Positions 33,489 through 60,764 of a stretch of 64,000 bases of DNA are shown piece after piece. A program made the translations under genes and the position numbers. The notes under the pieces were generated by a model. That model was not told where the DNA came from. It saw only the letters and a program-made list of their open reading frames with translations, and ran no database searches. Source of the stretch: Micromonospora halophytica (lineage in GTDB: Bacteria > Actinomycetota > Actinomycetes > Mycobacteriales > Micromonosporaceae); the NCBI RefSeq assembly GCF_900090245.1, contig NZ_FMDN01000012.1, forward strand, positions 124,001-188,000. The letters run 5' to 3'. The first letter of the stretch is position 1. Each line of letters begins with the position of its first letter.

Positions 33489-33727
33489 CCCGACCGGTGC
33501 CGCCCGCACCGGCGCTCCGGCGGGACATCGAGAGCGCGACGCGCCCGACCGGCGGCGCCACCCGGGGTGCGTGCCTTCGGTAACAGGCACAACATTGCAT
33601 CCATGAGCGACCGGCACCCTACGAAAATGCGGCAATCACACTGGGCCATGGCCGCTTGCAAAACGGTAGGCTGCCAGCGTCGGAGCCAATTCCCGAAGCG
33701 ATGCCGGATGCCAGCGGAGGTTGTTTC

Positions 33728-34330
33728 ATGAAAGTGGAGAGACTTGCCATCGAGGGTGCCTGGCTCATGTCGCCGAGCCGCGGGACCGACGTGCAGGACG
33801 ACTGTCTCGACTGGTGCCGGTCCGAGGTGCTGGAAGAGCATCTCGGCCACGAAATGGCGTTGACCAGGGGCGGTCTTTCCGTCTCCACGGGCGGGGCCGT
33901 CCGCGGCATCTATTTCACCGATGACACGCCCGGAGCGGCGAAATATGTCATGTGCATCAACGGCGCCGTGCAGGAGGTGGTGGTCGACCTGCGGGAGGGG
34001 TCGCCCACCTTCGGCTGCGCCGACGCGGTGATCCTGGACGACCGGAAAAGCTGCGGACTGTACATTACCCAAGGGCTGGGACATGGTTTCTGCGCGCTGA
34101 CCGAAACGGCGGTGACCGTCCGTCTGAGGTCTGCGGCCTACAACTCCGACGCCGAGCGCACGGTCCATCCCCTCGATCCGGCATTCGGAATCGAGTGGCT
34201 GACCGACGCCCCGGCCCTGTTGTCACAGGACGCAGCGGCGCCGACCCTGGCATCCCTGGTGGCGGCCGGAGGGCTCTCCCGCGTCGTACGGCGTCAGGAC
34301 GAGGCCAGGTTCACGCCGGCGTCGCCCTGA
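33728..34330 (+). CDS. dTDP-4-keto-6-deoxyhexose 3,5-epimerase-like protein with His-to-Tyr change
   Basis: This 200-residue RmlC-type cupin is related to the C-5 epimerases that convert D- to L-configured dTDP-deoxysugars. VVVDLREGSPTFG, YITQGLGHGFCAL and HPLDPAFGIEW are conserved. The general-base histidine in the RGxHF motif is replaced: here it reads RGIYF (Tyr62). The tyrosine acid in AAYNSDAE is kept. The protein may be inactive, act on another step, or use Tyr62. The ATG has GGAGG at 33716-33720, seven bases away. It is the first gene of the aromatic polyketide region and converges with the NmrA-type gene at a strong hairpin. Confidence 0.85.
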   Translation: MKVERLAIEGAWLMSPSRGTDVQDDCLDWCRSEVLEEHLGHEMALTRGGLSVSTGGAVRGIYFTDDTPGAAKYVMCINGAVQEVVVDLREGSPTFGCADAVILDDRKSCGLYITQGLGHGFCALTETAVTVRLRSAAYNSDAERTVHPLDPAFGIEWLTDAPALLSQDAAAPTLASLVAAGGLSRVVRRQDEARFTPASP

Positions 34331-34404: not shown

Positions 34405-35226
34405 TCAGCGGAACTCGTCCCGATGGTCCGCCGCCCACTGCACCAGCGTCCGGGCCGGCCGACCGAGGACCTCCTGGACCGTCGGCAGCACCTGCTCCGG
34501 ATTGTCGACCGTCTTGGCCCAGAGGCCCAGCAGCCAGTCGATGACGAATTCCGGCATCTGGTCCCTGACGTGCGCGCGCCACTGGTCCGGGGTCAGTTCC
34601 TCGAACTGGATCTCCCGCCCTACGCCCTCGCTGAGGGCCCGCACCTGCTCGCTCTTGGTGAGCGACTCAGGTCCGGTCACGGTGTAGATCTTCCCCTCGT
34701 CGGCGGCGACCAGCGCGGCGGCGGCCACCTCGGCGACGTCCGCCTCGTGGACCGGCGCCTGCCGTGCCGCGTCGTACGGCGCCCGCACCACTGCCTCGGT
34801 GCGGATCGCCTCGGCCCAGTCCGAGAGGTTCCCCGCGAACATGCCGGGGCGGACGTGCGCCCAGCCGACGCCGGAGTTCTCGACCACCAACTCCGCGGCG
34901 CGGTGGAAACCGCCGGTCGGGTCACCCTCGAACGCCGCGCTCGCGGACGAGAGCAACACAATTCGCTGAACGCCGGCCTGCTTGGCCAGGTCCACCACTT
35001 TCTGCGTTTCTCCGGCGACCACCAGATACAGTCGGTCGATTCCCTCGAAATGCTCCGCGAGGGCGTCCGGCTTTTCGAGGTCGCCGGCCACGACGTCGAC
35101 TCCGGACGGCAGGCCGGCAGTTTCCGGCCGCCGCGTCAATGCGCGTACTTCCACCTTCTGGTCGAGCAGACTGTCGACTACGTGGCGGCCGACTGTTCCC
35201 GTAGCTCCGGTCACAAAGATCTTCAC
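34405..35226 (-). CDS. NmrA-like NAD(P)-binding oxidoreductase
   Basis: This 273-residue protein is an atypical short-chain dehydrogenase. It has the N-terminal Rossmann motif VTGATGTVGRHVV, AGDLEKPDAL and VQRIVLLSSASA, and lacks the YxxxK active site of classical SDRs. This is the NmrA/quinone-reductase-2-like family. Members in aromatic polyketide clusters are proposed to reduce quinones or bind NADP(H), with few proven. The GTG at 35226 follows GAAGGAGC by seven bases. It is last in the leftward set cyclase, aromatase, methyltransferase, NmrA, 102 bases after the methyltransferase. Likely a tailoring reductase. Confidence 0.85.
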   Translation of the reverse strand: MKIFVTGATGTVGRHVVDSLLDQKVEVRALTRRPETAGLPSGVDVVAGDLEKPDALAEHFEGIDRLYLVVAGETQKVVDLAKQAGVQRIVLLSSASAAFEGDPTGGFHRAAELVVENSGVGWAHVRPGMFAGNLSDWAEAIRTEAVVRAPYDAARQAPVHEADVAEVAAAALVAADEGKIYTVTGPESLTKSEQVRALSEGVGREIQFEELTPDQWRAHVRDQMPEFVIDWLLGLWAKTVDNPEQVLPTVQEVLGRPARTLVQWAADHRDEFR

Positions 35227-35328
35227 GCAAGCTCCTTCGTGCTCCGCGGTCTCGAGCGACCGTACCAACGTCCCGGCGAAATTTCACATAGCTCTTCGCC
35301 GGGCGTTCGCAGGGCCGCTGAGCTGGGC

Positions 35329-36006
35329 TTACAGCCTCACCTCGAACAATGCGACAGATCCTCGTACTGTCACTTCGTAATCGGTGAATCTGCTGGCCAG
35401 CTCCGCCTCCAGGCCGCGGAGCGAGTCGCCCTCGTTGTCGAAGGTCCGCTTCTCGTTCAGGGTCTCCAGCAGCCTCAGCGCCTCGCTGCTGTGCGGGACG
35501 CCGGTTCCCGGCACGGTGCTGCCGAAGATCCGGCCGCCCGGTACGACATGTGCGCGGGCGTGGTCGAACACCCTTGCCTTGTGGCGCATCCCGCCCGGCA
35601 GGCAGTGCAGCAGGAAGTTCATGCCCACCGAGTCGAACTGTTCGCCGTCGAGCGCGAATGGCGACAGCACGTCGCGTTCGAAGACGGCCGGTTGGAACCG
35701 CCGTAACCGGGCAGCCGACTGGGCCAGCACGGTCGGGTTGAGATCGACCAGCGCGATCCGGGGCCGCGGTGAGCGTTGCCGGCAGCTGTCGAGGAAGAAC
35801 CCGGTGCCCGGCCCGAGGTCGAGGTGCCGCTCACCGATGTTCCGGTCGTAGAGCCGGACCATCTCGGCGCTGTCGCAGAGCCAGATCCGGCGGCAGATCC
35901 GGTCGAGCACGACGTTGTCGTACTGCGACAGCCACTCCTGGTCGTAGACGGCCGTGCCGGCGAGGACGTCCCCGCGGGTCGGACTGGTGTCGACCTGCTC
36001 AGGCAT
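35329..36006 (-). CDS. SAM-dependent class I methyltransferase
   Basis: This 225-residue protein has motif I LDLGPGTGFFLD (about residue 64), an acidic motif II (ALVDLN) and post-motifs around GMNFLLHCLPGG. It would transfer a methyl group from SAM. The type (O-, C- or N-) and acceptor are not evident. Its ATG lies eight bases inside the end of the aromatase/cyclase gene, so the two are translationally coupled, which suggests an early action on the polyketide. No ring-binding domain typical of DnrK/TcmO O-methyltransferases is present, so it is a small single-domain enzyme. Confidence 0.88.
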   Translation of the reverse strand: MPEQVDTSPTRGDVLAGTAVYDQEWLSQYDNVVLDRICRRIWLCDSAEMVRLYDRNIGERHLDLGPGTGFFLDSCRQRSPRPRIALVDLNPTVLAQSAARLRRFQPAVFERDVLSPFALDGEQFDSVGMNFLLHCLPGGMRHKARVFDHARAHVVPGGRIFGSTVPGTGVPHSSEALRLLETLNEKRTFDNEGDSLRGLEAELASRFTDYEVTVRGSVALFEVRL

Positions 36007-36931
36007 GGTGCTGCTCCTCGGCGTACGCCTTCGCCAGCCGCAGATTGCTCATGCTGTTCGCGCTGAGGACCCGGCGCAGGTACTTGCGGGCGTCCAGCAC
36101 CGTGGTGTCCGCACCGAGGATCGGCAGCGCGGACGGCTTGATCACCGCGGTGTGCCGGGCGCCGAGGATGAAGCCCTCCCGCGTCGGCGTGAACCTCCAG
36201 TGCCCGGTGTGGCCGTCCAACAGCTTCGGCAGGTGGATCTGCTTGTAGACGATCTTGTTGTTGGGCAGGCAGATCCGCACCGACCGGGTGGTGTGCGGCG
36301 AGCCGTCCGGCGTGTGGGTGTCCATGTCGAAGAACTGGATGTTCGGGACCCGCTCCTCAAGCACCAGCCGCGAGACGTGCGGGATGCGCTCCGGCCACTT
36401 GTCGGCCTCGTACAGGTACTCGTACGCGGCGTCGAGCGACCCGGCCACGAAGAGCGGATCCTCGAAGTCGACGACCAGGTCCCGCCGTTCCTCGTCGTGC
36501 TCCGCGGCCGTGCGGACGGCGTTGAGCAGTTCCCGCAGTTCCCGCTCCGCGCCGGCCGCGTCGTAGCTGCCGTCACCCGCCGCGGCCTGCTCCAACCGGA
36601 CCTCGGTGGACGAGTCGGACGACGGGTGCAGGATCCACTCGCCCCGCGCGCCGGCCGCGCCGGGCTGGTGCGGCGCGAACTCGTAGCGGATCCGCAACTG
36701 CTCACGATCGAAGTGCCAGCTCGCCTGCCAGGTCCGCACGGTGTGGTCGTCGATCACCCACCAGTGCCGGAAGAGCTGCCCGTGCTCGTCGGCGCCGAGC
36801 GGTTCCGCGTGCACGGACGGGCCGTGGAACTGCGGCCAGCTACCCAGGTCGGCGACCAGGTCGAACACCAGGGTCGCGGGTGCGGCAACCGTCGCGGTGT
36901 GCTGGATGGTGTCCTTGTTCAGAGTCGGCAC
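35999..36931 (-). CDS. Didomain polyketide aromatase/cyclase
   Basis: This 310-residue protein has two SRPBCC (START-like) domains, about 1-150 and 155-305. The first starts IQHTATVAAPATLVFDLVADLGSWPQFHG and the second carries YEYLYEADKWPERIPHVSRLVLEE, a hallmark of ActVII/Gra-type didomain enzymes. These close and aromatise the first ring of C-9-reduced poly-beta-ketone chains. The presence of a didomain rather than monodomain enzyme suggests a reduced first ring. It is transcribed leftward from a promoter with heptamer repeats (36982-37024) and coupled to the methyltransferase. Confidence 0.93.
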   Translation of the reverse strand: MPTLNKDTIQHTATVAAPATLVFDLVADLGSWPQFHGPSVHAEPLGADEHGQLFRHWWVIDDHTVRTWQASWHFDREQLRIRYEFAPHQPGAAGARGEWILHPSSDSSTEVRLEQAAAGDGSYDAAGAERELRELLNAVRTAAEHDEERRDLVVDFEDPLFVAGSLDAAYEYLYEADKWPERIPHVSRLVLEERVPNIQFFDMDTHTPDGSPHTTRSVRICLPNNKIVYKQIHLPKLLDGHTGHWRFTPTREGFILGARHTAVIKPSALPILGADTTVLDARKYLRRVLSANSMSNLRLAKAYAEEQHHA

Positions 36932-36981
36932 GGTGCGGTACCTCCGGGATCGGGTGGAAACGTTCAGCGCCTGCTGGCCTG

Positions 36982-37024
36982 AGATTCGCCGTTGTGGCTC
37001 GAGTACCTGTGGAACCTCGGTGGA
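36982..37024 (-). promoter_or_regulatory. SARP-type repeat and -10 box before the aromatase gene
   Basis: On the minus strand three heptamers lie at an exact 11-base period: TCCACCG (37024-37018), TCCACAG (37013-37007) and TCGAGCC (37002-36996). Eight bases after the last comes GAATCT (36987-36982), a possible -10 box. The layout matches known SARP sites. The first two repeats are weak matches. Confidence 0.5.
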
Positions 37025-37030
37025 CCACGC

Positions 37031-37810
37031 TCAGTCGGCCAGCAACGCCACCGCCCTCGTCCATCCCGCGCCGCCGCCGGTGATCTTCACCGGGAAGCAC
37101 GAGACGTCGAACCCGTACGGGTGGGGCAGCGTGCCGAGGTTGGCCAGGCGCTCGATCTGGCAGTACTCCCGGTCCCGGCCGGCGAAGTGCGCGGGCCACA
37201 GCACGGACCGGTCGCCCGTCCGCTGGTACCGCCGGATGATGTCGCCGAACGGCGCGTCCAGGCTGAAGGCGTCGGTGCCGATCACCTTCACCCCGAGATC
37301 CAGCAACAGGTGGACGGCGGGACCGTCGAGGCCGGCGAAGTCCGTGAAGTACTCCGGGGTCCCCACCCGCTGGTCGGCGCCGGTGTGCAGCAGCACGATC
37401 TCCCCCGCGGACGGGGTGTGCCCGATCCGGGCGAACTCCTTCTCCAACCGGGCGGCGCCGATCACCCCGGTCGGGGCGTCGGTCACGTCGAGCACGACAC
37501 CGGGGCCGTGGAACCAGTCGAGCGGCAGCTCGTCGATGTGCCGCGGGGTGCCGGTCCCGTAGGTGCACCGGGATCCGTAGTGCGACGGAGCGTCGACGTG
37601 GGTGCCGGTGTGCGTGGTGAGGGAGATCCGGTCGAGCGAGAGGAACTCGCCCTCCGGCAGCACGTCCGGATCGAAGTCGATGCCGAAGTGCTCGCGCATC
37701 TCGGAACTCATGTGCAGGGCACCCGCCCGCGGGGTGAGCACCTCGTGGACCACGGGGTCGGGCTCGTGGGCCCGGGCGTCCACGGGTGAGGACAGATCGA
37801 TGATGCGCAC
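37031..37810 (-). CDS. PF04199-type polyketide cyclase (SnoaM/DpsY-like)
   Basis: This 259-residue protein belongs to the cyclase/kynurenine-formamidase-like family. It begins RIIDLSSPVDARAHEP and has the metal-site motif THTGTHVDAPSHYG (the HxGTHxDxPxH signature) and IVLLHTGAD. In anthracycline-type pathways such enzymes (SnoaM, DpsY) assist second and third ring closure. The GTG at 37810 follows GGAGG by five bases. It is the first gene of the leftward set, divergent from the SnoaL-like gene; the 173-bp gap carries a period-11 repeat that may serve either side. Confidence 0.88.
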   Translation of the reverse strand: MRIIDLSSPVDARAHEPDPVVHEVLTPRAGALHMSSEMREHFGIDFDPDVLPEGEFLSLDRISLTTHTGTHVDAPSHYGSRCTYGTGTPRHIDELPLDWFHGPGVVLDVTDAPTGVIGAARLEKEFARIGHTPSAGEIVLLHTGADQRVGTPEYFTDFAGLDGPAVHLLLDLGVKVIGTDAFSLDAPFGDIIRRYQRTGDRSVLWPAHFAGRDREYCQIERLANLGTLPHPYGFDVSCFPVKITGGGAGWTRAVALLAD

Positions 37811-37902
37811 TGCTGCCTCCGGTGGGTGTGTCGGCTGCGCCGTCGCCGGGAATGGTCCCGGGAGCTGAGCCAGGCCCGTTGGAGCCTCGCTGTACACCCG
37901 CC

Positions 37903-37934
37903 TCGAGCAGGACTCGAAACCACTGTGGAACGTT
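37903..37934 (+). promoter_or_regulatory. SARP-type direct repeat in the divergent cyclase/SnoaL-like promoter region
   Basis: TCGAGCA (37903-37909) and TCGAAAC (37914-37920) are separated by four bases, giving an 11-base period that matches the TCGAGC-type consensus of ActII-ORF4 and DnrI. Eight bases later AACGTT (37929-37934) is a plausible -10 box, 50 bases before the SnoaL-like start. Confidence 0.65.
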
Positions 37935-37983
37935 GCCGTCCGGGGAGATCCGTCCCCGGCGTACCACTGCGGAGATGAGGAGC

Positions 37984-38454
37984 ATGTCCTTGACGACGGC
38001 GCAGCAGGCATTCGAACGGACCTACGCGGAGGTGCTGCAGTTCTACGCCGAGCACATCCAGGCGATGGACGAGGGGCGGGCGGAGGAGGTGGCGCTGACC
38101 TTCACCGAGGACGCCTCGCTGGTGTCCCCGCCGAAGATCGCCGAGCCGGTCCGGGGGCGGGCGAACCTCCGCGCCGGCCTGCGGAAGGCGGCCGACGCAC
38201 AGGCGGCCGAGGGAGTGCGGTACCGCCGGTGCCACACCATGATGTCGGTACGGCCGGGCCCCGACGCCGAACTGTTCGTCCGGGCGTACGTGCAGGTGGT
38301 GCGCACCGGACCGGACGGCGGCTCGCACCTGCACGCCATGTGCGTCTGCGAGGACGTGCTGGTGCGCCGGGACGGCGCGCTGAAGATCCGTGAGCGGGTG
38401 GTCACCCGCGACGACCAACTTCGGGTCGACCCCGGCTCGAGCGCCCATGGGTAG
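37984..38454 (+). CDS. SnoaL-like/NTF2-fold protein
   Basis: This 156-residue cone-shaped alpha+beta protein has the SnoaL/ketosteroid-isomerase-like pattern: AFERTYAEVLQFYAEHIQAMDEGRAEEVALTFTEDASLVSP and C-terminal LKIRERVVTRDDQ. In aromatic polyketide pathways relatives act as aldol cyclases (SnoaL), hydroxylases or ActVI-A-type proteins. The active-site Asp of SnoaL cannot be assigned with confidence. Two in-frame ATGs exist (37975, 37984). I chose 37984, for which GGAG at 37971-37974 is well placed. Its stop overlaps the ATG of the SDR gene (eight bases), so they are coupled. Confidence 0.82.
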   Translation: MSLTTAQQAFERTYAEVLQFYAEHIQAMDEGRAEEVALTFTEDASLVSPPKIAEPVRGRANLRAGLRKAADAQAAEGVRYRRCHTMMSVRPGPDAELFVRAYVQVVRTGPDGGSHLHAMCVCEDVLVRRDGALKIRERVVTRDDQLRVDPGSSAHG

Positions 38455-39232
38455 CTTCCTCGCCGTGAGCGACTCCAGGTACAACACCGCCGCACGCGGT
38501 GTCATCGTCACCGGTGGTGGTACGGGCATCGGCCGGGCCACCGCGCAAGGGTTCGCCGAGCAGGGCGACCAGGTGCTGGTCGTGGGGCGTACGGAGCGGA
38601 CACTCGCCGAGACCGCGCTCGACCGGCCGAACATCCGCACGCTGGCTGTCGACATCACCGACCCGGGCGCCGCCGAGGTGATCGTCAGCACCGCGCTGCG
38701 CGAGTTCGGCAGGCTCGACGTGCTGGTCAACAACGCCGGGATCGCCGTACCGGCACCGGTCGGGCAGATCGACCGCCGCAGCGCCACCGAGCAGCTCGAG
38801 GTGAATCTCCTCGCCCCGATCTTCCTCACCCAGCAGGCGCTCCCCGCGCTCGCCGAGACCAACGGCACGGTGGTGAACCTGAGCAGCGCCGGTTCCCTGG
38901 GCCGCCGGGCCTGGCCGTACCTGTCGATCTACGGCGCCGGCAAGGTGGCCATCGACTTCCTCACCAGGACGTGGGCGGTCGAGTTCGCCCCGCGGGGGGT
39001 GCGCGTCGTGGCTGTCGCCGCCGGAGTGATCGCGACCGGTATGGGCATCCGCTCGGGTTCCACCCCGCAGGAGTACGAGGGTTTCCTCGCCCAGATCAGC
39101 AAGCTCGCTCCGCTCGGGCGGGTCGGACAGCCGGAGGAGATCGCCTGGTGGGTGCGGCAGCTCACCGATCCGGCGGCCGGCTACGCGACGGGGACGGTCC
39201 TCGCGGTCGACGGGGGATTGAGCGTCACCTGA
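38447..39232 (+). CDS. SDR-family ketoreductase
   Basis: This 261-residue classical short-chain dehydrogenase has the cofactor motif VTGGGTGIGRA, NNAG, catalytic Ser in VNLSSAGS and YGAGK (Tyr, Lys). An Arg after the second beta strand (VVGRTERT) suggests NADPH. It does not look like the ActIII C-9 ketoreductase group, whose active-site region reads PYSASKHG. It is therefore more likely a later tailoring reductase or a non-canonical chain reductase. ATG at 38447 overlaps the preceding stop; a GTG at 38465 is a possible shorter start. Confidence 0.85.
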   Translation: MGSFLAVSDSRYNTAARGVIVTGGGTGIGRATAQGFAEQGDQVLVVGRTERTLAETALDRPNIRTLAVDITDPGAAEVIVSTALREFGRLDVLVNNAGIAVPAPVGQIDRRSATEQLEVNLLAPIFLTQQALPALAETNGTVVNLSSAGSLGRRAWPYLSIYGAGKVAIDFLTRTWAVEFAPRGVRVVAVAAGVIATGMGIRSGSTPQEYEGFLAQISKLAPLGRVGQPEEIAWWVRQLTDPAAGYATGTVLAVDGGLSVT

Positions 39233-39239
39233 GGGCGTG

Positions 39240-39257
39240 CCGAGCGAAAGTCGAGCG
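39240..39257 (+). promoter_or_regulatory. SARP-type direct repeat before the ABM-KS-CLF-ACP genes
   Basis: CCGAGCG (39240-39246) and TCGAGCG (39251-39257) differ at one base and are separated by four bases, an exact 11-base period. No strong -10 box is seen at the eight-base spacing (GAGACA at 39266-39271 is weak). It lies 74 bases before the ABM start, just after the SDR stop. Confidence 0.6.
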
Positions 39258-39330
39258 ACCCGCAAGAGACATCGGGCAGCGTTGCCGTCAGTGAAACGGG
39301 TTCCACCGAGAGCGACGAGGGGTGCAGCAG

Positions 39331-39666
39331 ATGCCGACCACCAAGTACGACGTCACCGTCCCGGAAGCGGTGACCTTCGTCAACACGTTCACCGTGTCCA
39401 GCCCGCCGGAGGAGTTCGAGCGGGTGTTCGCGGAGATCTCGGAGTTCATGGCCGCCCAGCCGGGCTTCATCCAGTACACGTTGTCCCGCAACATCGACGA
39501 CGACAAGCAGAACCGCTACGTCAACGTCGCCCTCTGGACGGATGTCGAGTCCTGGCGCAGGGCGGTCTCCCACCCGGACTTCCAGTCCCACGCGAGGGAG
39601 ATCCGGGCGCGCTGCACCAACGAGGCCAACATGTACGTGCCTCGCCAGGCCTACTCGGTGAAGTGA
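39331..39666 (+). CDS. ABM-family (TcmH/SnoaB-like) monooxygenase
   Basis: This 111-residue dimeric alpha/beta-barrel protein contains [31 protein letters not shown] and [18 protein letters not shown] with the conserved W and H of the family. Cofactor-free members oxidise anthrones to anthraquinones (TcmH, ActVA-ORF6) or hydroxylate the ring (SnoaB). It probably oxygenates the tricyclic or tetracyclic intermediate. The ATG at 39331 has GAGGGG eight bases upstream and is preferred to the in-frame GTG at 39322. A strong hairpin follows before the ketosynthase gene. Confidence 0.85.
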
Positions 39667-39677
39667 CCGCGACGCCA

Positions 39678-39700
39678 CCCCCGGTCCGTCGGACCGGGGG
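39678..39700 (+). terminator. Hairpin between ABM and ketosynthase genes
   Basis: A ten-base perfect stem (39678-39687 with 39691-39700) has a three-base loop, eleven bases after the ABM stop. It may terminate part of the transcripts or protect the upstream mRNA, so that ketosynthase expression may depend on read-through or a separate promoter. Confidence 0.65.
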
Positions 39701-39766
39701 ACCCAGCCGCGCGGTAGATCATGGCGGCCACGGCCGCCCGCCCAACCGTTACGAGGTCAGGCAGAG

Positions 39767-41035
39767 ATGAAGCGTCGTGTCGTGATTACCGGAGTGGGAC
39801 TCGTCGCCCCCGGCGGCAACGGGGCCAAGCAGTTCTGGGATCTGATTTCCGAGGGGCGGACGGCCACCGGCCGGATCTCCTTCTTCGATCCGAGTCCGTT
39901 CCGCTCGCAGGTCGCCGCGGAGTGCGACTTCGACCCGGAGCTCGAAGGGTTCAGCCCACAACAGATCCGGCGGATGGACCGGGCCACCCAGTTGGCGGTG
40001 GCGAGTGCCCGGGAGTGCGTGCAGGACAGCGGACTGGACCTGCGGGCGGTCGATCCGGCGCGTACCGGGGTCACCGTCGGCAGTGCGGTCGGCTGCACGA
40101 TGGGCCTGGAGGAGGAGTACCGGGTCGTCAGTGACGGTGGGCGGAGCTGGCACGTCGACGAGAGCTACGCGGTGCCGCACCTGTTCGACTACTTCGTACC
40201 GAGCTCCATCGCCGCCGAGGTCGCCTGGGAGGTCGGCGCGGAGGGCCCGGTGGCGACCGTCTCCACCGGCTGCACCTCGGGGCTGGACTCGGTCGGTCAG
40301 GCGGTGGAGCTGGTCGCGGACGGTCTGGCGGACGTGATGGTGGCCGGCGCCTCCGACGCGCCGATCTCGCCGATCACCGTCGCCTGCTTCGACGCGATCA
40401 GGGCGACCACCCCCCGAAACGACGACCCGGCCACGGCGTCGCGGCCGTTCGACCGGAGCCGGAACGGGTTCGTGCTGGGTGAGGGCTCCGCCATGTTCGT
40501 GCTGGAGGAGTACGAACGGGCCCGTCGGCGCGGTGCGCACATCTACGCGGAGGTCGCCGGCTTCGCGACGCGGAGCAACGCCTTCCACATGACCGGCCTT
40601 CGGCCGGACGGCAGGGAGATGGCCGAGGCCATCACCGTGGCCATGGCCCGTGCTGCGGTGGAGCCGGGCGACATCGACTACATCAACGCACACGGTTCCG
40701 GCACCGTCCAGAACGATCGTCACGAGACGGCGGCCTTCAAGCTGAGTCTGGGGTCGCGCGCCTACGAGACTCCGGTCAGCTCCATCAAGTCCATGATCGG
40801 CCACTCCCTGGGAGCCATCGGCTCCCTCGAGATCGCCGCGTGCGTGTTGGCGATGGAGAACGGGGTGGTGCCACCCACCGCGAACCTGCATGATCCGGAT
40901 CCGGTGTGCGACCTGGACTACGTGCCACTGGTGGCGCGGGAGCACCGGGTCGACGTCGCACTGACCGTGGGCAGCGGGTTCGGTGGCTTCCAGAGTGCGA
41001 TGGTGCTGGCCAGGCCCGACCGGGTGGGGCGATGA
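39767..41035 (+). CDS. Type II PKS ketosynthase alpha (KS-alpha)
   Basis: This 422-residue beta-ketoacyl synthase carries the nucleophile Cys169 in [11 protein letters not shown] and the catalytic histidines in [14 protein letters not shown] and [12 protein letters not shown]. With the CLF it elongates the poly-beta-ketone chain on ACP from malonyl units. It has full family length. Its last base pair overlaps the CLF start (ATGA), as in nearly all type II clusters. GAGGTCAGGCAGAG precedes the ATG. This firmly defines the 34-64 kb region as an aromatic polyketide cluster. Confidence 0.98.
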
Positions 41036-42240
41036 GCGCCGTCGTGGTGACCGGCATGGGCGTGGTGGCGCCAACCGGTCTGGGTGCCCGCCGGCACTGG
41101 GAGAACACGCTCGCCGGGCGGACCGCGATCGGCCGGATCACCGCCTTCGACCCGGCCGGGTACTCCAGCCGGCTCGCCGGGGAGATCAGGGACTTCGTAC
41201 CGGGGGAGCACCTGCCGGGGCGGCTGTTGCCGCAGACCGACCACATGACCCGGCTGTCCCTGGTGGCGGCGGACTGGGCGCTCGAGGAGGCGGCGGTCGA
41301 CCAGGCCGCGCTGCCGGAGTTCGGCATGGGGGTGGTGACGGCCAGTTCGGCCGGCGGCTTCGAGTTCGGCCACCGGGAGCTGGAGAAGTTGTGGAGCAGG
41401 GGGCCGGAACACGTCAGCGCCTACCAGTCCTTCGCCTGGTTCTACGCGGTGAACACCGGCCAGATCGCGATCCGGCACGGGATGCGGGGCCCGAACGGTG
41501 TGCTGGTCACCGAGCAGGCGGGCGGGCTCGACGCGGTGGCGCAGGCTCGCCGGCAGGTGCGCGGTGGCACGCCGGTGATGGTCTCCGGCGCCGTCGACGG
41601 ATCACCCTGTCCGTGGGGATGGGTCGCGCAGCTCTCGGGCGGCGGCATCAGCAGGTCCGAGGATCCCGACCGGGCCTTCCTTCCCTTCGACGTCCAGGCG
41701 GCGGGCTACGTACCCGGCGACGGTGGCGCGCTCTTCGTGCTGGAGACCGAGCAGGGGGCGCGGGCTCGGGGCGTACGGTCCCGGTACGGCGAGATAGCCG
41801 GGTACGCCGCGACGTTCGACCCGCCGCCGCGGTCGGAGCGGCCGTCGACGCTGCGCCGGGCGATCGAACTCGCGCTGGAGGACGCCGGGCTCGAACCGAG
41901 CCGGATCGACGTGGTCTTCGCCGACGGCGCCGGGGTGCCGGAACGCGACCGGGTGGAGGCGGAGGCCCTGCTGTCGGTGTTCGGACCGTACGGCGTGTCG
42001 GTGACCGTGCCCAAGACGATGACCGGCCGCCTCAGCGCCGGTGGGGCGGCCCTGGACCTGGCCACCGCACTGCTGACCCTGCGGCACGGGGAGATTCCCC
42101 CGACCGTCAACGTCACCAGCCCGGTGCCGGACTACCAGCTCGACCTGGTGACGCAGCCGCGCCGGCGGCCGGTCTCGGCGGCCCTGGTGGTGGCTCGAGG
42201 TCACGGCGGCTTCAACGCCGCCATGGTCGTGACGAGGTGA
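41032..42240 (+). CDS. Chain length factor (KS-beta)
   Basis: This 402-residue partner of KS-alpha has glutamine in place of the catalytic cysteine ([11 protein letters not shown]162), the mark of a CLF. It shares [15 protein letters not shown] and [17 protein letters not shown] with characterised CLFs such as that of actinorhodin. The heterodimer cavity sets the chain length, and the sequence alone does not tell me C16 from C20. The start overlaps the KS-alpha stop (ATGA), so the two are made in equal amounts. Confidence 0.97.
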
Positions 42241-42273
42241 CGCATTCCGATCTGACCGAGAAGGGCGCAGAGA

Positions 42274-42531
42274 ATGAACGAATTCACGGTGGACGATCTC
42301 ACAACGATTTTGCGGGAATGTGCGGGTGAGGATGACGAGTCGGCCCTCGATGGCGACATCCTGGACGTGGAGTTCGGCAGTCTCGGGTACGACTCGATCG
42401 CGATGATGGAGACTGCGGGTCGTATCAAGATTGACTACGGGGTGGTGCTGGCCGATGACGTGGTGCTGTCGGCCGGGACCCCGCGCGAACTGGTGCGGCT
42501 GGTCAATCTGACCATGGTCGAGAGTTCCTGA
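42274..42531 (+). CDS. Type II PKS acyl carrier protein
   Basis: This 85-residue acidic four-helix protein has the phosphopantetheine attachment serine in GYDSIAMM (Ser41). It carries the growing polyketide. It lies 33 bases after the CLF, completing the minimal PKS in the standard KS-CLF-ACP order. It needs a phosphopantetheinyl transferase; the one at 4847-5509 is a candidate. No malonyl-CoA:ACP transacylase gene is in the window, as is common, since the fatty-acid enzyme serves. Confidence 0.97.
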   Translation: MNEFTVDDLTTILRECAGEDDESALDGDILDVEFGSLGYDSIAMMETAGRIKIDYGVVLADDVVLSAGTPRELVRLVNLTMVESS

Positions 42532-42660
42532 GGCTGCTCCGAGCCGTTGCGGGGCGATGGCGCGGCCGACCGGGAAGCGGCATGGTCGACATCGGTCGTA
42601 CTGCGGTGAGCTGCGGTGACGAGGGCCGCGGACGCCGGCTTGTCCATCCCTGTCCGCGCA

Positions 42661-42690
42661 GGCGCGGCGACCGGACCCGGTCGCCGCGCC
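42661..42690 (+). terminator. Terminator hairpin of the minimal PKS transcript
   Basis: A perfect 14-base dyad (42661-42674 with 42677-42690) has two central bases, 130 bases after the ACP stop. It separates the PKS operon from the regulator. Confidence 0.7.
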
Positions 42691-42901
42691 ACTTGCTGCG
42701 CCACTTGCGGGGAGCTCGCCTCCGGCTGCCCGGGCGGGCGCACCGGGGCGGGTCCGCTGGTCGCGTGTCGTCGTGTGCACTCCCGGTCCGGAGGCTGCCC
42801 GGCGAGGCGGCGGAGGTCTGCCGAATGGGCGACCTGCGGCATGGTCGATGGCGCCGGGAGAGGGGTGTGGTCGGTTTCACAGCAGCGTCGACAGAGGGCG
42901 C

Positions 42902-42928
42902 TTGACAAACGCGACTGGCTCATATCAA
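42902..42928 (+). promoter_or_regulatory. Candidate promoter of the SARP gene
   Basis: TTGACA (42902-42907) is followed after 15 bases by TATCAA (42923-42928); an alternative CAATAG gives 18-base spacing. The -35 box overlaps the left half of the CTTGACA/TGTCAAG dyad, which could be an operator. Confidence 0.4.
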
Positions 42929-43093
42929 TAGAAGGCTGTCAAGGCCATTTTGGAGCGGAGATAGGACTTGCGCGCTGAGTGGTACTCGCGTCACGCGCCG
43001 CCCCATGGTACTTTTGCCGGAACGCATGGTTCTTCCTTTCCATCACATTTGAACTCGGGGGACGCTGTGGGATTTGAAGGTCCGGCGACAGTT

Positions 43094-43939
43094 ATGAATC
43101 TGGGAGTCCTGGGTCCACTGTCCGTTCTTTCCAACTCGGTCAACAAAACGCCCAGCGCGCGGAAACCGCGCAATGTTCTCGCGATGCTTCTGGTCCACGC
43201 GGATCAGGTGGTTCCGGTATCCGCGTTGATCTCGGAATTGTGGGAGGACGAGCCTCCGGTCAGCGGGCTGACCACCCTGCAGACCTACATCCTGAACCTG
43301 CGGAAGACCTTCGTCGCGGCGACCGGCCGGCCCGCCGCCGAGATCACGAAGGAAGTCCTGGTCACCCGCGTCGGGGGCTACATGTTCAGAAGCGATGCCA
43401 GCGTGCTGGACGTGCGCGAGTACGACAAGCTGGTCTCGGCCGGCTGGTCGGCGCTGGGTGACGGCGACGATCTCACCGGGATGATGCGCCTGACCGAGGC
43501 GCTCCGGCTGTGGCGGGGCGCGGCCCTGGTCGACGTGCCACTGGGGCGGGTGCTCGAGTCCAAGCGCCGTGAGCTGGAGGAATCCCGACTGATGGTGACG
43601 GAATATCTGGTGGGTGCCAAGTTGCGGCTCGGGATGTACCGCGAGGTGCTGACCGAACTGGCCGCGCTCACCGCCGAGAATCCGTTGCACGAGGGCCTGC
43701 AGGCGCAATACATGCGTGCGCTGCACCTCGGTGGCCGGCGTGCGCAGGCGCTCGAGGTCTTCCACCGGTTACGGCGCAACCTCATCGACGAACTGGGCCT
43801 GGAACCCGAGTCGCAGGTGCAGCGTGCCTACCAGGCGATTCTCAATTCCGACACCGAATTCGACCAGGACCTCCACGTGGTCCGTCCGCTCGCGGGCAGT
43901 CTCAGCAGCTCCAGTTGGGGTCGCGCCCGAACGTATTGA
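43094..43939 (+). CDS. SARP-family pathway activator with an in-frame TTA codon
   Basis: This 281-residue protein has an OmpR-like winged helix (about 1-100, NLGVLGPLSVL...) and a bacterial transcriptional activation domain (about 105-255), as in ActII-ORF4, DnrI and RedD. It would bind heptamer repeats and recruit RNA polymerase at cluster promoters. Several such repeats are seen in this window. The ATG at 43094 matches the family N-terminus; a GTG at 43067 would add nine residues. Codon 226 (43769-43771) is TTA, which in streptomycete-type genomes makes translation depend on the bldA leucyl-tRNA and delays production. It is placed just after the minimal PKS. Confidence 0.93.
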   Translation: MNLGVLGPLSVLSNSVNKTPSARKPRNVLAMLLVHADQVVPVSALISELWEDEPPVSGLTTLQTYILNLRKTFVAATGRPAAEITKEVLVTRVGGYMFRSDASVLDVREYDKLVSAGWSALGDGDDLTGMMRLTEALRLWRGAALVDVPLGRVLESKRRELEESRLMVTEYLVGAKLRLGMYREVLTELAALTAENPLHEGLQAQYMRALHLGGRRAQALEVFHRLRRNLIDELGLEPESQVQRAYQAILNSDTEFDQDLHVVRPLAGSLSSSSWGRARTY

Positions 43940-44080: not shown

Positions 44081-45235
44081 GTGCTGACACAGACGGACAG
44101 TGAGCTCGGTCGGTCCCTGATGACCGAGCGCGGAATGCAATGGTTGTACGCACACGGCAGCGACCCGCACTCGGTTCTGCTACGCGCGGAAGACGAGAAT
44201 CGCGGCGCGCTCCTCGAAAGGCTCCATGAGCTGGGGCCACTCCAGCGCAGCCGCAACGGCGCCTGGGTGACCGGCGACTTCCTGCTCGGTCACGAGATCC
44301 TCCACGATCGGCGGATCACTCCCGGCACACCGGACGACGCCGCCGACGGGCACGAGCTCCGTCGGCGGGTCGCCCTTCTCGGGCTGCCCGAGGAGGCGCG
44401 GGAACGGCCGTGGACCGGGTCCGAACGGTGTCCGGACGGCGGCGCGGTCGAGCACGCCTGTGCCGACGGGCTCGAGCGGATCGGTGACGAGTTCGACCTC
44501 GTCACCGACCTGCTGCGTCCGGTGATGATCGCGATCGTCGGGGACCTCCACCGAGTGCCGGAGGCGGACCGGGCCGCGTTCAGCCGGTTCTGCACCGCCG
44601 CCGCGCCGGTTCTCGACGCCCGACTGGCCCCGCCGAGGCTCGCCCGCGCCCGGGCGGTGATCGACGCGGTCGACGGCCTGGAATCCCTGCTCCGCAAGCT
44701 CCCCGGCGCGGACGACGACCACATCGCCGCCACGACGGTGAGTTGCCTGGTCGGCGTGGAGGTGGCGGTCGACCTCGTCGCGAACGCGGTGCAGGCCCTG
44801 CTCGACCACCCTGTCGCGTGGCGAACGCTGGGCGAGGACCCGGCGTTCGCCGGCCGCGTGGTGGAGGAGACGCTGCGACACGATCCGCCGATCCGGCTGG
44901 AGAGCCGCATCGCCCGAACCGACCTCGAACTCGCCGGCCAGCCGATCGACGCCGGCACCGAGGTCGTGGTGAACGTCGAGGCAGCCAACCGCGACCCCCG
45001 ACGCGGCGCGGACCTCGACCGGTTCGACCCGTTCAGGACGCCCCCGGCGGCGCACCTCTCGCTGACCGGTGCGCCGTACCTCGACGCGGTCGCGCCGCTG
45101 GCGCGTACCTCGGCGGCCGCGATGTTGCGCGTCCTGGCCATCCGGTGCCCGCGGATCCGCCGGCGCGGGCCCGTCGTACGCCGGCTGCGCGCTCCCGTGA
45201 CCCACGCGATCACGCGGTTGCCCGTGACCGCCTGA
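44081..45235 (+). CDS. P450-like auxiliary protein for glycosyl transfer (DnrQ/AknT/DesVIII family)
   Basis: This 384-residue cytochrome-P450-like protein lacks the haem-ligand cysteine. The region that would hold FGxGxHxCxG reads RTPPAAHLSLTGAPYLDAVAP. The ExxR-like part (VVEETLRHDP) is retained. Family members are not oxygenases but activate and stabilise a partner glycosyltransferase. The partner is the next gene, 47 bases downstream, exactly the DesVIII-DesVII or AknT-AknS order. The N-terminus RGMQWLYAHGSDPHSVLLR parallels the second helper beginning at 63690. The GTG start sits against GGAAGG, so the exact start is uncertain. Confidence 0.9.
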   Translation: MLTQTDSELGRSLMTERGMQWLYAHGSDPHSVLLRAEDENRGALLERLHELGPLQRSRNGAWVTGDFLLGHEILHDRRITPGTPDDAADGHELRRRVALLGLPEEARERPWTGSERCPDGGAVEHACADGLERIGDEFDLVTDLLRPVMIAIVGDLHRVPEADRAAFSRFCTAAAPVLDARLAPPRLARARAVIDAVDGLESLLRKLPGADDDHIAATTVSCLVGVEVAVDLVANAVQALLDHPVAWRTLGEDPAFAGRVVEETLRHDPPIRLESRIARTDLELAGQPIDAGTEVVVNVEAANRDPRRGADLDRFDPFRTPPAAHLSLTGAPYLDAVAPLARTSAAAMLRVLAIRCPRIRRRGPVVRRLRAPVTHAITRLPVTA

Positions 45236-45282
45236 GATCTGCCTCCCGCGACGTTCGTCCCCTCTGGAAGGACTCCTGTCCC

Positions 45283-46554
45283 ATGCGCGTTCTCATGACG
45301 TCCCTGGCGGTCGAAGCGCACTTCAACAACACCGTGCCGCTGGCCTGGGCGCTCCGGGCAGCCGGGCACGAGGTCCACGTCGCGAGTCATCCGGCGTTGA
45401 CCGAGATCATCACCCGCGCCGGGCTGGTCGCGGCGCCGGTGGGCACGGACCATACCCATCACGAACTGGTCCGCGAACTCGGAGCGGAGCTGACCGGCTT
45501 CTACCGCGACATCGACTTCACCGGTGAACGCGGCGGCGGCTACACCGAACTGAAGGGCGCCAACACACTGTTGACGGCCACCTTCTACGCCCAGGCCAAC
45601 AACGACTCGATGGTCGACGAGCTGGTCGACTACGCCCGGTTCTGGGAGCCGGACCTGGTGGTCTGGGAGCCGTTCACGTTCGCCGGGGCGGTGGCCGCCC
45701 GAGCGACCGGCGCCGCCCACGCCCGCCTGCTCTGGGGACCGGACCTGTTCCTGCAGACGCGGCAGACGTTCCGGCGGCAGACGGATCTGCTGCCCGAGGA
45801 ACTGCACGACGACGCGCTGGAGGAGTGGCTGTCCTGGACCCTGGACCGGTTCGGCTGCGCCTTCGACGAGGAGGTCGTGACCGGGCAGTGGAACATCGAC
45901 CAGATGCCCAGGAGCGTCCGACTGGACCTGGGGCGACCGTCGGTGCCGGTGCGGTACGTGCCGTACAACGGGCCGTCGGTGATACCGCAGTGGCTCCGTA
46001 CGCCGGCCGACCGGCCGAGGATCTGCCTGACCCTCGGTATCACCTCCCGCGACCTGCCCTACCCGAACATGGTCTCGGTGGACCAGCTCTTCGAGTCGGT
46101 CGCCGGGCTGGACGCGGAGATCGTGGCGACGTTCGACGCCGGGCAGCTCGCCGAGTCGACCCGACTGCCCGACAACGTCCGCGTGACGGACTTCGTACCC
46201 CTGCAGGCCCTGCTGCCGACCTGTTCGGCGGTGGTCCACCACGGCGGCGTCGGGACCTGGTCCACCGCGGCCGTCAGCGGCGTGCCCCAGCTCGTGGTCG
46301 CCGGCATGTGGGACAACGTCTACCGGGCCCGGCGACTGGCGGACCTCGGGGCCGGGATCTTCCTGCCGCCGCACGAGCTGACGGCGGCGGCGCTGCGCGA
46401 CGGTCTGGAACAGCTCCTGACGAAACCGTCCTTCCGCGAGGAGTCCCACCGGCTCCAGGCGGAGATCCTGGCCGAGCCGAGCCCCGGCGCGGTCGTGCCG
46501 GTCATCGAGGAGATGACCGGACGGCACCGGAGGCCCCGACCGGGGTCGCGGTGA
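45283..46554 (+). CDS. Deoxysugar glycosyltransferase (AknS/DesVII/EryCIII-type, GT1)
   Basis: This 423-residue GT-B fold enzyme has the N-terminal MRVLMTSLAVEAHFNNTVPLAWALRAAGHEV. Its C-terminal nucleotide-sugar motif is CSAVVHHGGVGTWSTAAVSGVPQLV. It would transfer a dTDP-deoxysugar to the polyketide aglycone or to a first sugar. The family needs a P450-like helper, supplied by the preceding gene. The ATG has GGAAGGA 11 bases upstream. The predicted sugar donor is the aminodeoxysugar made by genes at 58-62 kb. Confidence 0.95.
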   Translation: MRVLMTSLAVEAHFNNTVPLAWALRAAGHEVHVASHPALTEIITRAGLVAAPVGTDHTHHELVRELGAELTGFYRDIDFTGERGGGYTELKGANTLLTATFYAQANNDSMVDELVDYARFWEPDLVVWEPFTFAGAVAARATGAAHARLLWGPDLFLQTRQTFRRQTDLLPEELHDDALEEWLSWTLDRFGCAFDEEVVTGQWNIDQMPRSVRLDLGRPSVPVRYVPYNGPSVIPQWLRTPADRPRICLTLGITSRDLPYPNMVSVDQLFESVAGLDAEIVATFDAGQLAESTRLPDNVRVTDFVPLQALLPTCSAVVHHGGVGTWSTAAVSGVPQLVVAGMWDNVYRARRLADLGAGIFLPPHELTAAALRDGLEQLLTKPSFREESHRLQAEILAEPSPGAVVPVIEEMTGRHRRPRPGSR

Positions 46555-58334: not shown

Positions 58335-58375
58335 AGCGATTCTCAAGCGATTCTTGTGGTCGTCTCCCATACGAT
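58335..58375 (+). promoter_or_regulatory. Period-11 repeats and leaderless promoter of the sugar C-methyltransferase
   Basis: AGCGATTCT occurs at 58335-58343 and again at 58346-58354, an 11-base period. TACGAT (58370-58375) is a good -10 box, from which transcription would begin at or next to the ATG at 58383. There is no ribosome site. The repeats cover the -35 position, as activator sites do. Confidence 0.5.
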
Positions 58376-58382
58376 CTCGGCC

Positions 58383-59600
58383 ATGGTCAAATGCCGTGTT
58401 TGTGGTGGGTCACTGACTGAGTTCATCGACTTCGGGCAGCAGCCCCTCTCCGACGCCTTCCTGCCGCCGGACGACATCGCGGGCGAGTTCTTCTTCCGGC
58501 TCGCCGTAGGCCTGTGCGCGGACTGCACGATGGTGCAGCTCATGGAGGAGGTGCCGCGGGAGCGCATGTTCCACGACGAGTACCCCTACGTGTCGTCCGG
58601 GTCGGTGGTGATGCGGGAGCACTTCGAGGCGACCGCCCGGCAGTTCCTGGCGACCGAACTCTCCGGCCCGGACCCGTTCATCGTCGAGATCGGCAGCAAC
58701 GACGGCGTCATGCTCAGGACGATCGACAAGGCCGGCGTGCGACACCTCGGGGTCGAGCCGTCCGGGAGCGTGGCCGAACTGGCCCGGATGCAGGGCATCC
58801 AGGTGCTCAACGAGTTCTTCGAGGCGTCCTCGGCGGTCCGGATCCGCGCGGAGCACGGGCCGGCCCAGGTCGTCTACGCCGCGAACACCATGTGCCACAT
58901 CCCCTACGCCGAGTCGATCTTCCGAGGGCTGGACGCCCTGCTGGCACCGGACGGGGTGTTCGTGTTCGAGGACCCGTACCTCGGCGAGATCGTCGACCGG
59001 ACGTCCTTCGACCAGATCTACGACGAGCACTTCTACTTCTTCACCGCCCGGTCGGTCGCGGCGATGGCCGAACGCTTCGGGTTCCAGCTGGTCGACGTGC
59101 GGCGGCTGCCGGTGCACGGCGGCGAGGTGCGGTACACCCTGGCCCGGGCTGGCGTCCGTACCCCCACGGCGGCCGTCGCCGACCTCCTCGCCGAGGAGGC
59201 GGCCGCCGGGCTCGCCGACCTGGCCACCTTCCAGCGGTTCGCCGCGGCGGTACGTGCGGTACGGGACGACCTGCTGACCCTGCTGCGCCGGCTCAAGGCC
59301 GAAGGCCGGGTGGTGGGCGCGTACGGGGCGACCGCGAAGAGCGCCACCGTCACCAACTACTGCGGGATCACTCCCGACCTGGTGGCGTACGTTCTCGACA
59401 CGACTCCTGCGAAGCAGGGCCGGCTGACCCCCGGGGCGCACCTGCCGGTACGCCCGGCGCAGGAGTTCCGGCCGCCATACCCGGACTACCTGCTGCTCTT
59501 CGCCTGGAACCACGCCGAGGAAATCATGGCGAAGGAGCAGTCGTTCCGCGACGCAGGCGGCCGGTGGATCCTGTACACACCGAAGGTCCACCTGAGGTGA
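58383..59600 (+). CDS. dTDP-sugar C-3 methyltransferase (TylCIII/EvaC-like)
   Basis: This 405-residue protein has an N-terminal zinc-binding module (CRVCGGSLTEF..., CADCTMVQL), a SAM domain (FIVEIGSNDGVMLRTID) and the C-terminal domain AYGATAKSATVTNYCGI. The architecture is that of deoxysugar 3-C-methyltransferases that methylate the 4-keto (3-keto) dTDP-sugar to give branched sugars such as mycarose or vancosamine precursors. With the DnrJ-type aminotransferase at 60.8 kb it implies a 3-amino-3-C-methyl sugar. The start is firm because the zinc module begins directly at MVKCRVC. Confidence 0.93.
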   Translation: MVKCRVCGGSLTEFIDFGQQPLSDAFLPPDDIAGEFFFRLAVGLCADCTMVQLMEEVPRERMFHDEYPYVSSGSVVMREHFEATARQFLATELSGPDPFIVEIGSNDGVMLRTIDKAGVRHLGVEPSGSVAELARMQGIQVLNEFFEASSAVRIRAEHGPAQVVYAANTMCHIPYAESIFRGLDALLAPDGVFVFEDPYLGEIVDRTSFDQIYDEHFYFFTARSVAAMAERFGFQLVDVRRLPVHGGEVRYTLARAGVRTPTAAVADLLAEEAAAGLADLATFQRFAAAVRAVRDDLLTLLRRLKAEGRVVGAYGATAKSATVTNYCGITPDLVAYVLDTTPAKQGRLTPGAHLPVRPAQEFRPPYPDYLLLFAWNHAEEIMAKEQSFRDAGGRWILYTPKVHLR

Positions 59601-59619
59601 CCTCGCCGGGCCGGGGTGT

Positions 59620-60573
59620 TCACCCTGCCCGGAAGGTCTCCCACATCGCGCGTAACGACCGTCCGAGCGGGATCCGGGGAACCCAGTCCAGCAGCTTCCC
59701 CGCCCGCCGGATGTCGGCCTCGATCCAGGCCCCGCCCAGGCTCCGTACGGGCCGGGGCCGTTCCACGAGGATCGACGCCGGGTAGCCGGCGCTGGTGACG
59801 AAGAGCGTCACGAAGTCCCGCATCGGCACCGCCGTTCCGCTCCCGATGTTGACGGCACATCCCAGGCCGGGCCGGTCGGCGGCTCGCAGGATGGCGTCGG
59901 CCAGGTCGCGGACGTCCACGAAGTCGCGTCGGTCCGTGGCGACGGACACCTCCATCCGACCCGTTCGGGTGGCCTCGTCCAGCAGTCGCAGCAGCCTGCC
60001 GGGGAGACTCACCGGGGACGGGTGCGGCCCGCAGACGTTCACCGCGCGCAGCACCACACCGTCGACCAGCCCGGTGTGTGCGGCCTCGAGCACGGCGTTC
60101 GAGCCGGCCAGCTTGGTCCGGGCGTACCCGGAGACCGGCTTCGGTACGACGGTCTCGTCGATCGCGACGCCGGGCTCCACCGCACCGTATTCGTGGATGG
60201 TGCCGAGGTGCACCAGGCGTGGCCGCCGGGGCAGCGAGGTGATCGCCGAGAGCAGGCGGCGGACCAGGTCGACGTTGACGCGGGCCAACTGCTCCTCGGT
60301 GCGGTCCCAGCCGTCGGTGGCGTTGGCCGCGTCGGTGGCGTTGACCACCACGCGCACCTCCTCGGCGCGGAGGATCTCGGCGATGGTGCCGGGCGCCGCG
60401 GCGGCCAGGTCCAGCCGGACGAACGCGTCGTGCCGAACGCCCGGGACAGGGTTGCGTGCCAACGCGACGACCCGGTGGCCCCGGCTGGCGAACGCCTCGC
60501 AGACGTGCCTGCCCACCCAGCCGGTGCCGCCCAGCACGGCGACGCAGCCGTTCTCCTCGCTCTTCGGCGACAA
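59620..60573 (-). CDS. dTDP-4-keto-6-deoxyhexose 4-ketoreductase (DnmV/EvaE-like)
   Basis: This 317-residue NAD(P)-dependent epimerase/dehydratase-type protein has GGTGWVGRHV at the N-terminus and active-site TIHEYG plus YARTK (Tyr and Lys). Such enzymes reduce the C-4 keto group at the end of deoxysugar formation. The TTG at 60573 is preferred, with GGAGAG five bases upstream; no better ATG or GTG is available. It is divergent from the aminotransferase, and the shared 191-bp gap holds SARP-type repeats. Confidence 0.88.
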   Translation of the reverse strand: MSPKSEENGCVAVLGGTGWVGRHVCEAFASRGHRVVALARNPVPGVRHDAFVRLDLAAAAPGTIAEILRAEEVRVVVNATDAANATDGWDRTEEQLARVNVDLVRRLLSAITSLPRRPRLVHLGTIHEYGAVEPGVAIDETVVPKPVSGYARTKLAGSNAVLEAAHTGLVDGVVLRAVNVCGPHPSPVSLPGRLLRLLDEATRTGRMEVSVATDRRDFVDVRDLADAILRAADRPGLGCAVNIGSGTAVPMRDFVTLFVTSAGYPASILVERPRPVRSLGGAWIEADIRRAGKLLDWVPRIPLGRSLRAMWETFRAG

Positions 60574-60680
60574 CTCTTCTCTCCAGATCTTTGTTCGGTG
60601 CAGCGGTCAGGGCGGTCGGTGCGCCTCGAATATAGGAAGACCGCACGGAATTCGTCCAGCGGCGATTGCGGATGCGTTGT

Positions 60681-60723
60681 CCGAGCGACATCCGACCAGT
60701 CGTCGAGTGTGCCGTGCTAAACC
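60681..60723 (+). promoter_or_regulatory. Triple SARP-type repeat and -10 box before the aminotransferase gene
   Basis: CCGAGCG (60681-60687), CCGACCA (60692-60698) and TCGAGTG (60703-60709) lie at exact 11-base spacing. Eight bases after the last comes TAAACC (60718-60723), a possible -10 box. The aminotransferase ATG is 41 bases further on. Confidence 0.65.
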
Positions 60724-60764
60724 TGCTGATATTCCATCAACGGCCCGGGAGGCAAGGCGGATCG

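Follow-up and report, generated by a model that had tools for sequence, protein, structure and literature searches.

In RmlC, a histidine takes a proton from C3 or C5 of the sugar and a tyrosine returns one on the other face (PMC9095892), while a lysine stabilizes the enolate (PMC7949155). Mutants of the RmlC base, acid, or enolate-stabilizing lysine have their activity abolished (PMC7949155, Table 2). In the heptose epimerases of Campylobacter, mutation of the base leaves 25–30% of C3 activity on heptose and none on mannose, and an acid mutant of DdahB retains part of its activity (PMC7949155). The mutants taken from Table 2 include none in which base and acid are lost together. In the relative StrM, the base is His64 and the acid Tyr134, corresponding to positions 62 and 132 in the protein described below. 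Direct nucleotide contacts are made by F21, R25, F28, E30, Q48, R61, H64, Y140 and K170, and some TDP contacts come from domain-swapped strands (PMC9095892).

The closest described relative of our protein, both by sequence and by fold, is NovW, the 4-keto-6-deoxysugar epimerase of novobiocin formation (2c0z). Next among the solved structures, ranked by sequence, are Mycobacterium tuberculosis RmlC (1pm7, 2ixc), ChmJ, and StrM, with the dTDP-4-keto-6-deoxyglucose 5-epimerase EvaD (1ofn) further off within the same family. The double variant ChmJ H60N/Y130F (4hn1) was engineered; according to the title of the structure entry it was crystallized with dTDP, so that its other nucleotide contacts are presumably unaltered.

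The gene and its catalytic positions

We analyzed a window of 64,000 nucleotides from the draft genome of Micromonospora halophytica, an assembly of 64 contigs. The gene of interest (33728-34330; see table) was originally assigned to the sugar epimerase family, and that assignment is sound: the open reading frame is real, and its product exceeds the curated PF00908 cut-off of 27 bits by a wide margin. The NCBIfam equivalog model for RmlC, TIGR01221, gives 93.5 bits against a cut-off of 155.75, a threshold that the three other members of the family in this genome also fail to reach (151.2, 133.1, and 103.9 bits). Translation likely starts at ATG 33728 and less likely at the TTG of a longer frame beginning at 33656, because a GGAGG lies seven bases upstream of the ATG. 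The protein aligns to M. tuberculosis RmlC without gaps from residue 1 to about residue 157, so that residue positions in the two proteins are directly comparable over this range.

Features of the gene and its surroundings (window positions unless a locus is named)
Feature	Coordinates	Strand	Evidence or remark
Putative RmlC-family pseudo-epimerase gene, 200 aa	33728..34330	+	PF00908 125.9 bits; NovW 2c0z E 7.1e-46
GGAGG, probable ribosome binding site, 7 bases 5' of ATG	33716..33720	+	read from sequence
Codons 23-26: Gln, Asp, Asp, Cys; homologs Arg, Gly, x, Phe	33794..33805	+	StrM contacts R25, F28 (PMC9095892)
Codons 47-49: Arg, Gly, Gly; homologs Gln47, Asn49	33866..33874	+	nucleotide contacts, direct and via water (PMC9095892)
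TAT, Tyr62 replacing the base His	33911..33913	+	His in 190/190 homologous stretches
GAG, Glu83 replacing an invariant Asp	33974..33976	+	Asp in 190/190 homologous stretches
CGT, Arg132 replacing the acid Tyr	34121..34123	+	Tyr in 190/190 homologous stretches
TAC, Tyr138, kept; matches a nucleotide-contact Tyr, not the acid	34139..34141	+	equivalent to StrM Tyr140
NmrA-like reductase, methyltransferase, aromatase/cyclase, cyclase, SnoaL-like, SDR, ABM monooxygenase, ketosynthase pair, ACP, BTAD regulator	34405..43939	.	Pfam, gene calls
Two ketosynthases	39767-42240		adjoining pair
P450-derived glycosyltransferase activator and activator-dependent glycosyltransferase	44081..46554	+	TIGR04515 368.7 bits (cut-off 343), TIGR04516 633.9 (440)
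Deoxysugar genes: C-methyltransferase, NAD-dependent reductase, DegT aminotransferase	58356..61874	.	PF08484/PF08421, PF01370, PF01041
Second activator-glycosyltransferase pair	L115:1690-4181, reaching beyond window		all four genes of the two pairs over NCBIfam cut-offs
EvaD-like 5-epimerase gene, outside window	68170-68772 (L115:6170-6772)	-	224 bits vs EvaD; catalytic residues intact
NDP-hexose 2,3-dehydratase gene	L115:6769-8226	-	overlaps EvaD-like gene by four bases
Fourth RmlC-family gene	G000:C16:334856-335374		catalytic residues intact

The replacement of the catalytic base that the sequence-only reading had pointed out is borne out. Residues 59-63 read RGIYF, with tyrosine at position 62, where every one of the homologous stretches compared has histidine. 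These 190 stretches are distinct, have at least 100 residues aligned in pairwise tblastn, and come from fetched loci, rather than forming a random sample of the family; duplicates, stretches with fewer than 100 aligned residues, and copies of the query itself were left out. Read at residue 62, the fetched homologs are ordinary RmlC-type proteins with His62. The same reading had, however, taken the acid tyrosine to be kept, which is a mistake. Position 132 is arginine, and the surviving tyrosine is residue 138, whose StrM counterpart contacts TDP (PMC9095892); the case for lost activity is thus stronger than the sequence-only reading allowed.

Alongside these losses, Arg59, Lys72, His119, Tyr138, Glu143, and Asp168 are kept, and both the enolate-stabilizing lysine (Lys72) and the dyad aspartate (Asp168) are present in the MAFFT alignment. 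NovW, by comparison, has RGIHF together with the acid tyrosine, and does not share the loss of the nucleotide-site Arg, Phe, Gln, and Asn seen here. M. tuberculosis RmlC and the RmlC encoded on contig C49 of this genome keep His62, Asp83, and Tyr132, unlike our protein. The ChmJ variant, fifth among the fold matches, resembles it in that base and acid are both replaced, but here the replacement is natural.

The nucleotide site and the predicted structure

A MAFFT alignment was made with 157 of 165 collected rows, seven with an internal stop and the query itself having been dropped. Five nearly invariant residues, Arg23, Gly24, Phe26, Gln47, and Asn49, are replaced in our protein by Gln, Asp, Cys, Arg, and Gly, respectively, and all of them except Asn49 also appear on a second list of nearly invariant residues. 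These positions sit in or beside the nucleotide site. Arg23 and Phe26 occur at frequencies of 1.00 and 0.97 in the 157 rows, none of which has Gln23 or Cys26. The same two positions are ragged in the pairwise tblastn comparison, with 138 Arg, 35 uncovered, 6 Gly, 6 Glu, 2 His, and 2 Gln among the residues printed for position 23, and 118 Phe and 21 Ala for position 26.

When the nine direct StrM contacts are carried over by motif, a mapping of our own in which the numbering is shifted by 1 to 3 relative to StrM, the equivalents are G19, Q23, C26, D28, R47, R59, Y62, Y138, and Q167. Only R59 and Y138 are identical (2/9), compared with 7/9 in the C49 protein, 8/9 in the C16 protein, and 6/9 in the EvaD-like protein.

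For a count over the whole pocket, we take Asp83 and His119 to be pocket residues. Together with these two and Asp168, the sites described in PMC9095892 (section 9) give a list of 12; Asp168 is the dyad aspartate of PMC7949155, positioned by alignment. Among the 157 homologs, 111 deviate at none of the 12 sites, 38 at one, 5 at two, and 3 at three, whereas our protein deviates at six. Leaving out Asp83 brings it to 5 deviations in 11 sites; for the homologs, in which Asp83 is invariant, the counts stay almost the same.

Among columns conserved in at least 90% of rows, 7 of 12 pocket columns are changed versus 4 of 22 others (one-sided p = 0.023; 0.025 and 0.056 when the conservation threshold is set to 0.8 and 0.7). 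With the 80 closer homologs the corresponding counts are 9/16 and 17/72 (p = 0.013, or 0.069 at 70%). Counting Asp83 outside the pocket raises the 90% values to 0.066 for all homologs and 0.031 for the closer ones. At 97% conservation or more, changes affect 5 of 9 pocket columns and 1 of 10 non-pocket columns, the latter being position 24 (p = 0.05), and the same contrast at 99% and 100% gives p values of 0.077 and 0.063. These comparisons suggest that the pocket has been altered more than the scaffold, although the statistic is modest and the columns are not independent of one another.

An AlphaFold2 monomer model shows the RmlC cupin fold with a pLDDT of 86.2. It superimposes on NovW with Z 28.0 and an rmsd of 1.9 over 190 residues, on M. 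tuberculosis RmlC with Z 27.6, and on EvaD with Z 24.8. Sugar 3,4-ketoisomerases of the FdtA/QdtA type, which we considered as an alternative identity, score far below the RmlC-type structures (Z 12.8 to 14.6), and no residues support that assignment. Model confidence falls to 57 over residues 21-30 and 67 over residues 31-40. One intact control, modeled with the same sequence set, reaches 97 and 98 in these two blocks and has strands 18-21 and 24-27, which our model lacks. From their spacing, we take F21, R25, F28, and E30 of StrM to be the swapped-strand residues, so that they fall in this low-confidence region. The drop is only supportive, because confidence partly reflects the closer relatives of the control, which is mostly 40–60% identical to other sequences versus 26–34% for our protein.

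Genomic setting and descent

The gene stands beside a set of polyketide genes that we read as type II, from the adjoining ketosynthase pair and the ACP. The two pairs of activator and glycosyltransferase suggest two glycosylations. Beyond the window, the same contig carries a methyltransferase, an acyltransferase, and the NDP-hexose 2,3-dehydratase. The deoxysugar gene set resembles that for vancosamine-like sugars. Further genes lie among or near these. A glycoside hydrolase of family 106 (alpha-L-rhamnosidase; 55381-58188, minus strand, 935 aa), located amid the sugar genes, could serve in trimming or activation of a glycoside. A methyltransferase at 46967-48142 (plus strand) has the MycE N-terminal domain PF17843, a type that we take to be a sugar O-methyltransferase. 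Close to the contig end lies a transposase with an integrase core (L115:10260-11105, minus strand), IS3-type by eye, and this may be where the cluster is interrupted or ends.

A search for a 5-epimerase outside the window was positive. The EvaD-like gene lies about 4.2 kb beyond the window end, and it, rather than our gene (95.8 bits), is the nearer relative of EvaD. His62, Asp83, and Tyr132 are retained in all three paralogs of the genome. The only RmlB and RmlD proteins of the genome that exceed their cut-offs are encoded together on contig C49, near the RmlC gene. Because of the intact EvaD-like gene, we reject 33728-34330 as the source of 5-epimerization. The sequence-only reading had expected the change at position 62 to affect the predicted stereochemistry of the sugar; this expectation is not supported, as the intact gene overlaps the 2,3-dehydratase gene just outside the window.

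To the left, the neighboring gene (32394-33488) has matches in 60 of 61 genomes of the genus. A close copy (61–71% identity) occurs in 29 of the 60 others, and the remaining genomes match a second copy of this gene family at about 45–50%. What lies downstream of this gene varies among relatives: 11 of 19 fetched flanks match gene families of the window, of five kinds, and none of the 19 matches gene 33728-34330. We infer that this gene may be the first of an accessory island, at its left edge. Nine regions with a ketosynthase 74–79% identical to that of the window contain no counterpart in the 36–50 kb covered for each, which is not always the whole cluster. Three of the nine hold an epimerase, and each is closer to the EvaD-like protein (47, 41, and 45% identity) than to ours (36, 35, and 36%).

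Protein searches in 354 genomes of the family, 394 of the class, 295 of one genus, and 397 of the order, draws that overlap and from each of which at most 30 loci were fetched, gave no ortholog among the matches listed. Apart from the gene itself, the best of those matches is an ordinary RmlC at 53% identity. All matches in a collection of 638 plasmid records fall below 60% identity, with 44.7% for the top-listed one; two plasmid records without annotation were fetched and are included in the loci behind the 190 stretches. A scan of genome contigs listed 80 loci, all at 39% identity or less. A tree of 113 rows places the protein in a 53-row clade of actinobacterial RmlC proteins that includes the genome's own RmlC, to which it is 48% identical. 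Support for this clade is 93/87, marginally under the firm mark of the tool, and the placement of rows with such long branches is unsure. With 1.9 changes per column against a median of 0.12, its end branch is the second longest in the tree, but two intact proteins also have long ones, the EvaD-like paralog with 1.72 and a row belonging to a related cluster with 2.16, so that a long branch alone is no sign of lost function.

Codon statistics are those of a coding gene, with GC of 0.82 at third positions versus 0.67 and 0.52 at first and second positions. At 0.821, its GC3 is lower than that of any other gene call above 450 bases (54 in all); below it come the short ACP gene (0.779) and two intact homologs elsewhere (0.76 and 0.814).

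Competing explanations and their consequences

We consider the protein to be a pseudo-epimerase that is unable to epimerize dTDP-4-keto-sugars, with a probability of roughly 0.75. The ancestor would have been an actinobacterial RmlC-type dTDP-4-keto-6-deoxysugar epimerase, of which the cupin core was retained. With His62 replaced by Tyr there would be no histidine to take the proton, and with Tyr132 replaced by Arg no tyrosine to return one on the opposite face. The changes at positions 23, 26, 47, and 49 would reduce the grip on the nucleotide. Asp83 is gone as well; Lys72 remains. 5-Epimerization for the amino-deoxysugar of the cluster would then come from the intact EvaD-like enzyme. The RmlC reaction is probably lost because base, acid, Asp83, and several nucleotide contacts are gone, and the original suggestion that the protein is inactive or catalyzes a different step thereby gains support. 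With Lys72, Arg59, His119, Glu143, and Asp168 still in place, the protein might bind anions or perform some chemistry. The argument also stops short of proof, because the Campylobacter base mutants keep part of their C3 activity. An epimerase that is still active, with Tyr62 or water serving as the base, would profit from the kept Lys72 and Asp168 and has a parallel in the residual activity of DdahB and MlghB base mutants (PMC7949155). Nonetheless, it is unlikely, as base, acid, and nucleotide contacts are lost together, none of the 190 homologous stretches is without His62 or Tyr132, and the EvaD-like gene makes such an activity unnecessary. An artifact of sequencing or assembly, for which only the draft state of the genome speaks, is highly improbable. 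The frame is open with normal coding statistics, eight well-conserved positions differ (23, 24, 26, 47, 49, 62, 83, and 132), and a single error would not suffice because several pocket codons are changed, some by two bases.

If the protein is indeed a pseudo-epimerase, it might be a fading relic, that is, an rmlC copy at the island's left end that is under relaxed selection and yields a useless protein, or it might function as a pseudoenzyme or repurposed cupin whose pocket was rebuilt for another ligand, partner, or step. Neither reaches even odds on its own, and we regard the two as about equally likely. The relic would fit the long end branch, the low GC3, the position at the edge of the island, the failure to find an ortholog among the matches listed, and the missing counterpart in the 36–50 kb of the nine ketosynthase regions. 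Against it, the frame is intact over 200 codons and still 48% identical to the genome's RmlC, a ribosome binding site is present, and third-position GC remains far above that of the other two positions, with GC3 being weak evidence alone in view of the lower values in the ACP gene and two intact homologs. In addition, changes concentrate in the pocket (the 5/9 versus 1/10 contrast above), and uniform decay would not single out the pocket. A kept core with an altered pocket is what a rebuilt protein would display, and Tyr62, Arg47, Arg132, and Arg134 beside the kept Arg59 and Lys72 would be its new residues.

A second argument for function comes from within the cluster. P450-derived glycosyltransferase activators are a family not known to be catalytically active, and the two encoded here offer a precedent for enzyme-derived proteins that have left their ancestral chemistry, although their fold is unrelated to that of our protein and their partner, a glycosyltransferase, is known. 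Conversely, no ortholog among the matches listed shows the new pocket conserved, and the model is poor over residues 21-40. The pocket-biased pattern leans mildly toward function and the failure to find a relative toward a relic. A more specific role seems a long shot: paired with RmlC or the EvaD-like enzyme in a mixed dimer, the protein would poison or regulate the sugar pathway as a subunit. RmlC-type enzymes work as dimers, and each nucleotide site is completed with the help of strands swapped in from the partner chain. Gln23, Asp24, and Cys26 fall, in our reading, in the swapped strand. A mixed dimer would then have two crippled sites, and dTDP-4-keto-6-deoxyglucose, apparently supplied by the single full-scoring RmlB of the genome, would be steered from rhamnose into the antibiotic sugar.

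The sugar prediction for the cluster need not change because of the intact EvaD-like gene beyond the window, and an L-type amino sugar is probably still produced by way of that other gene. A family-based annotation of 33728-34330 would probably read dTDP-4-dehydrorhamnose 3,5-epimerase and predict an L-sugar, which on our reading would be wrong here. A survey of titles and abstract starts in the open-licence literature found no described case of a sugar-epimerase-derived pseudoenzyme in an antibiotic pathway. The remaining interest lies in an epimerase that has been dismantled in nature while its reading frame stayed intact and that, if it has a job, would be such a pseudoenzyme.
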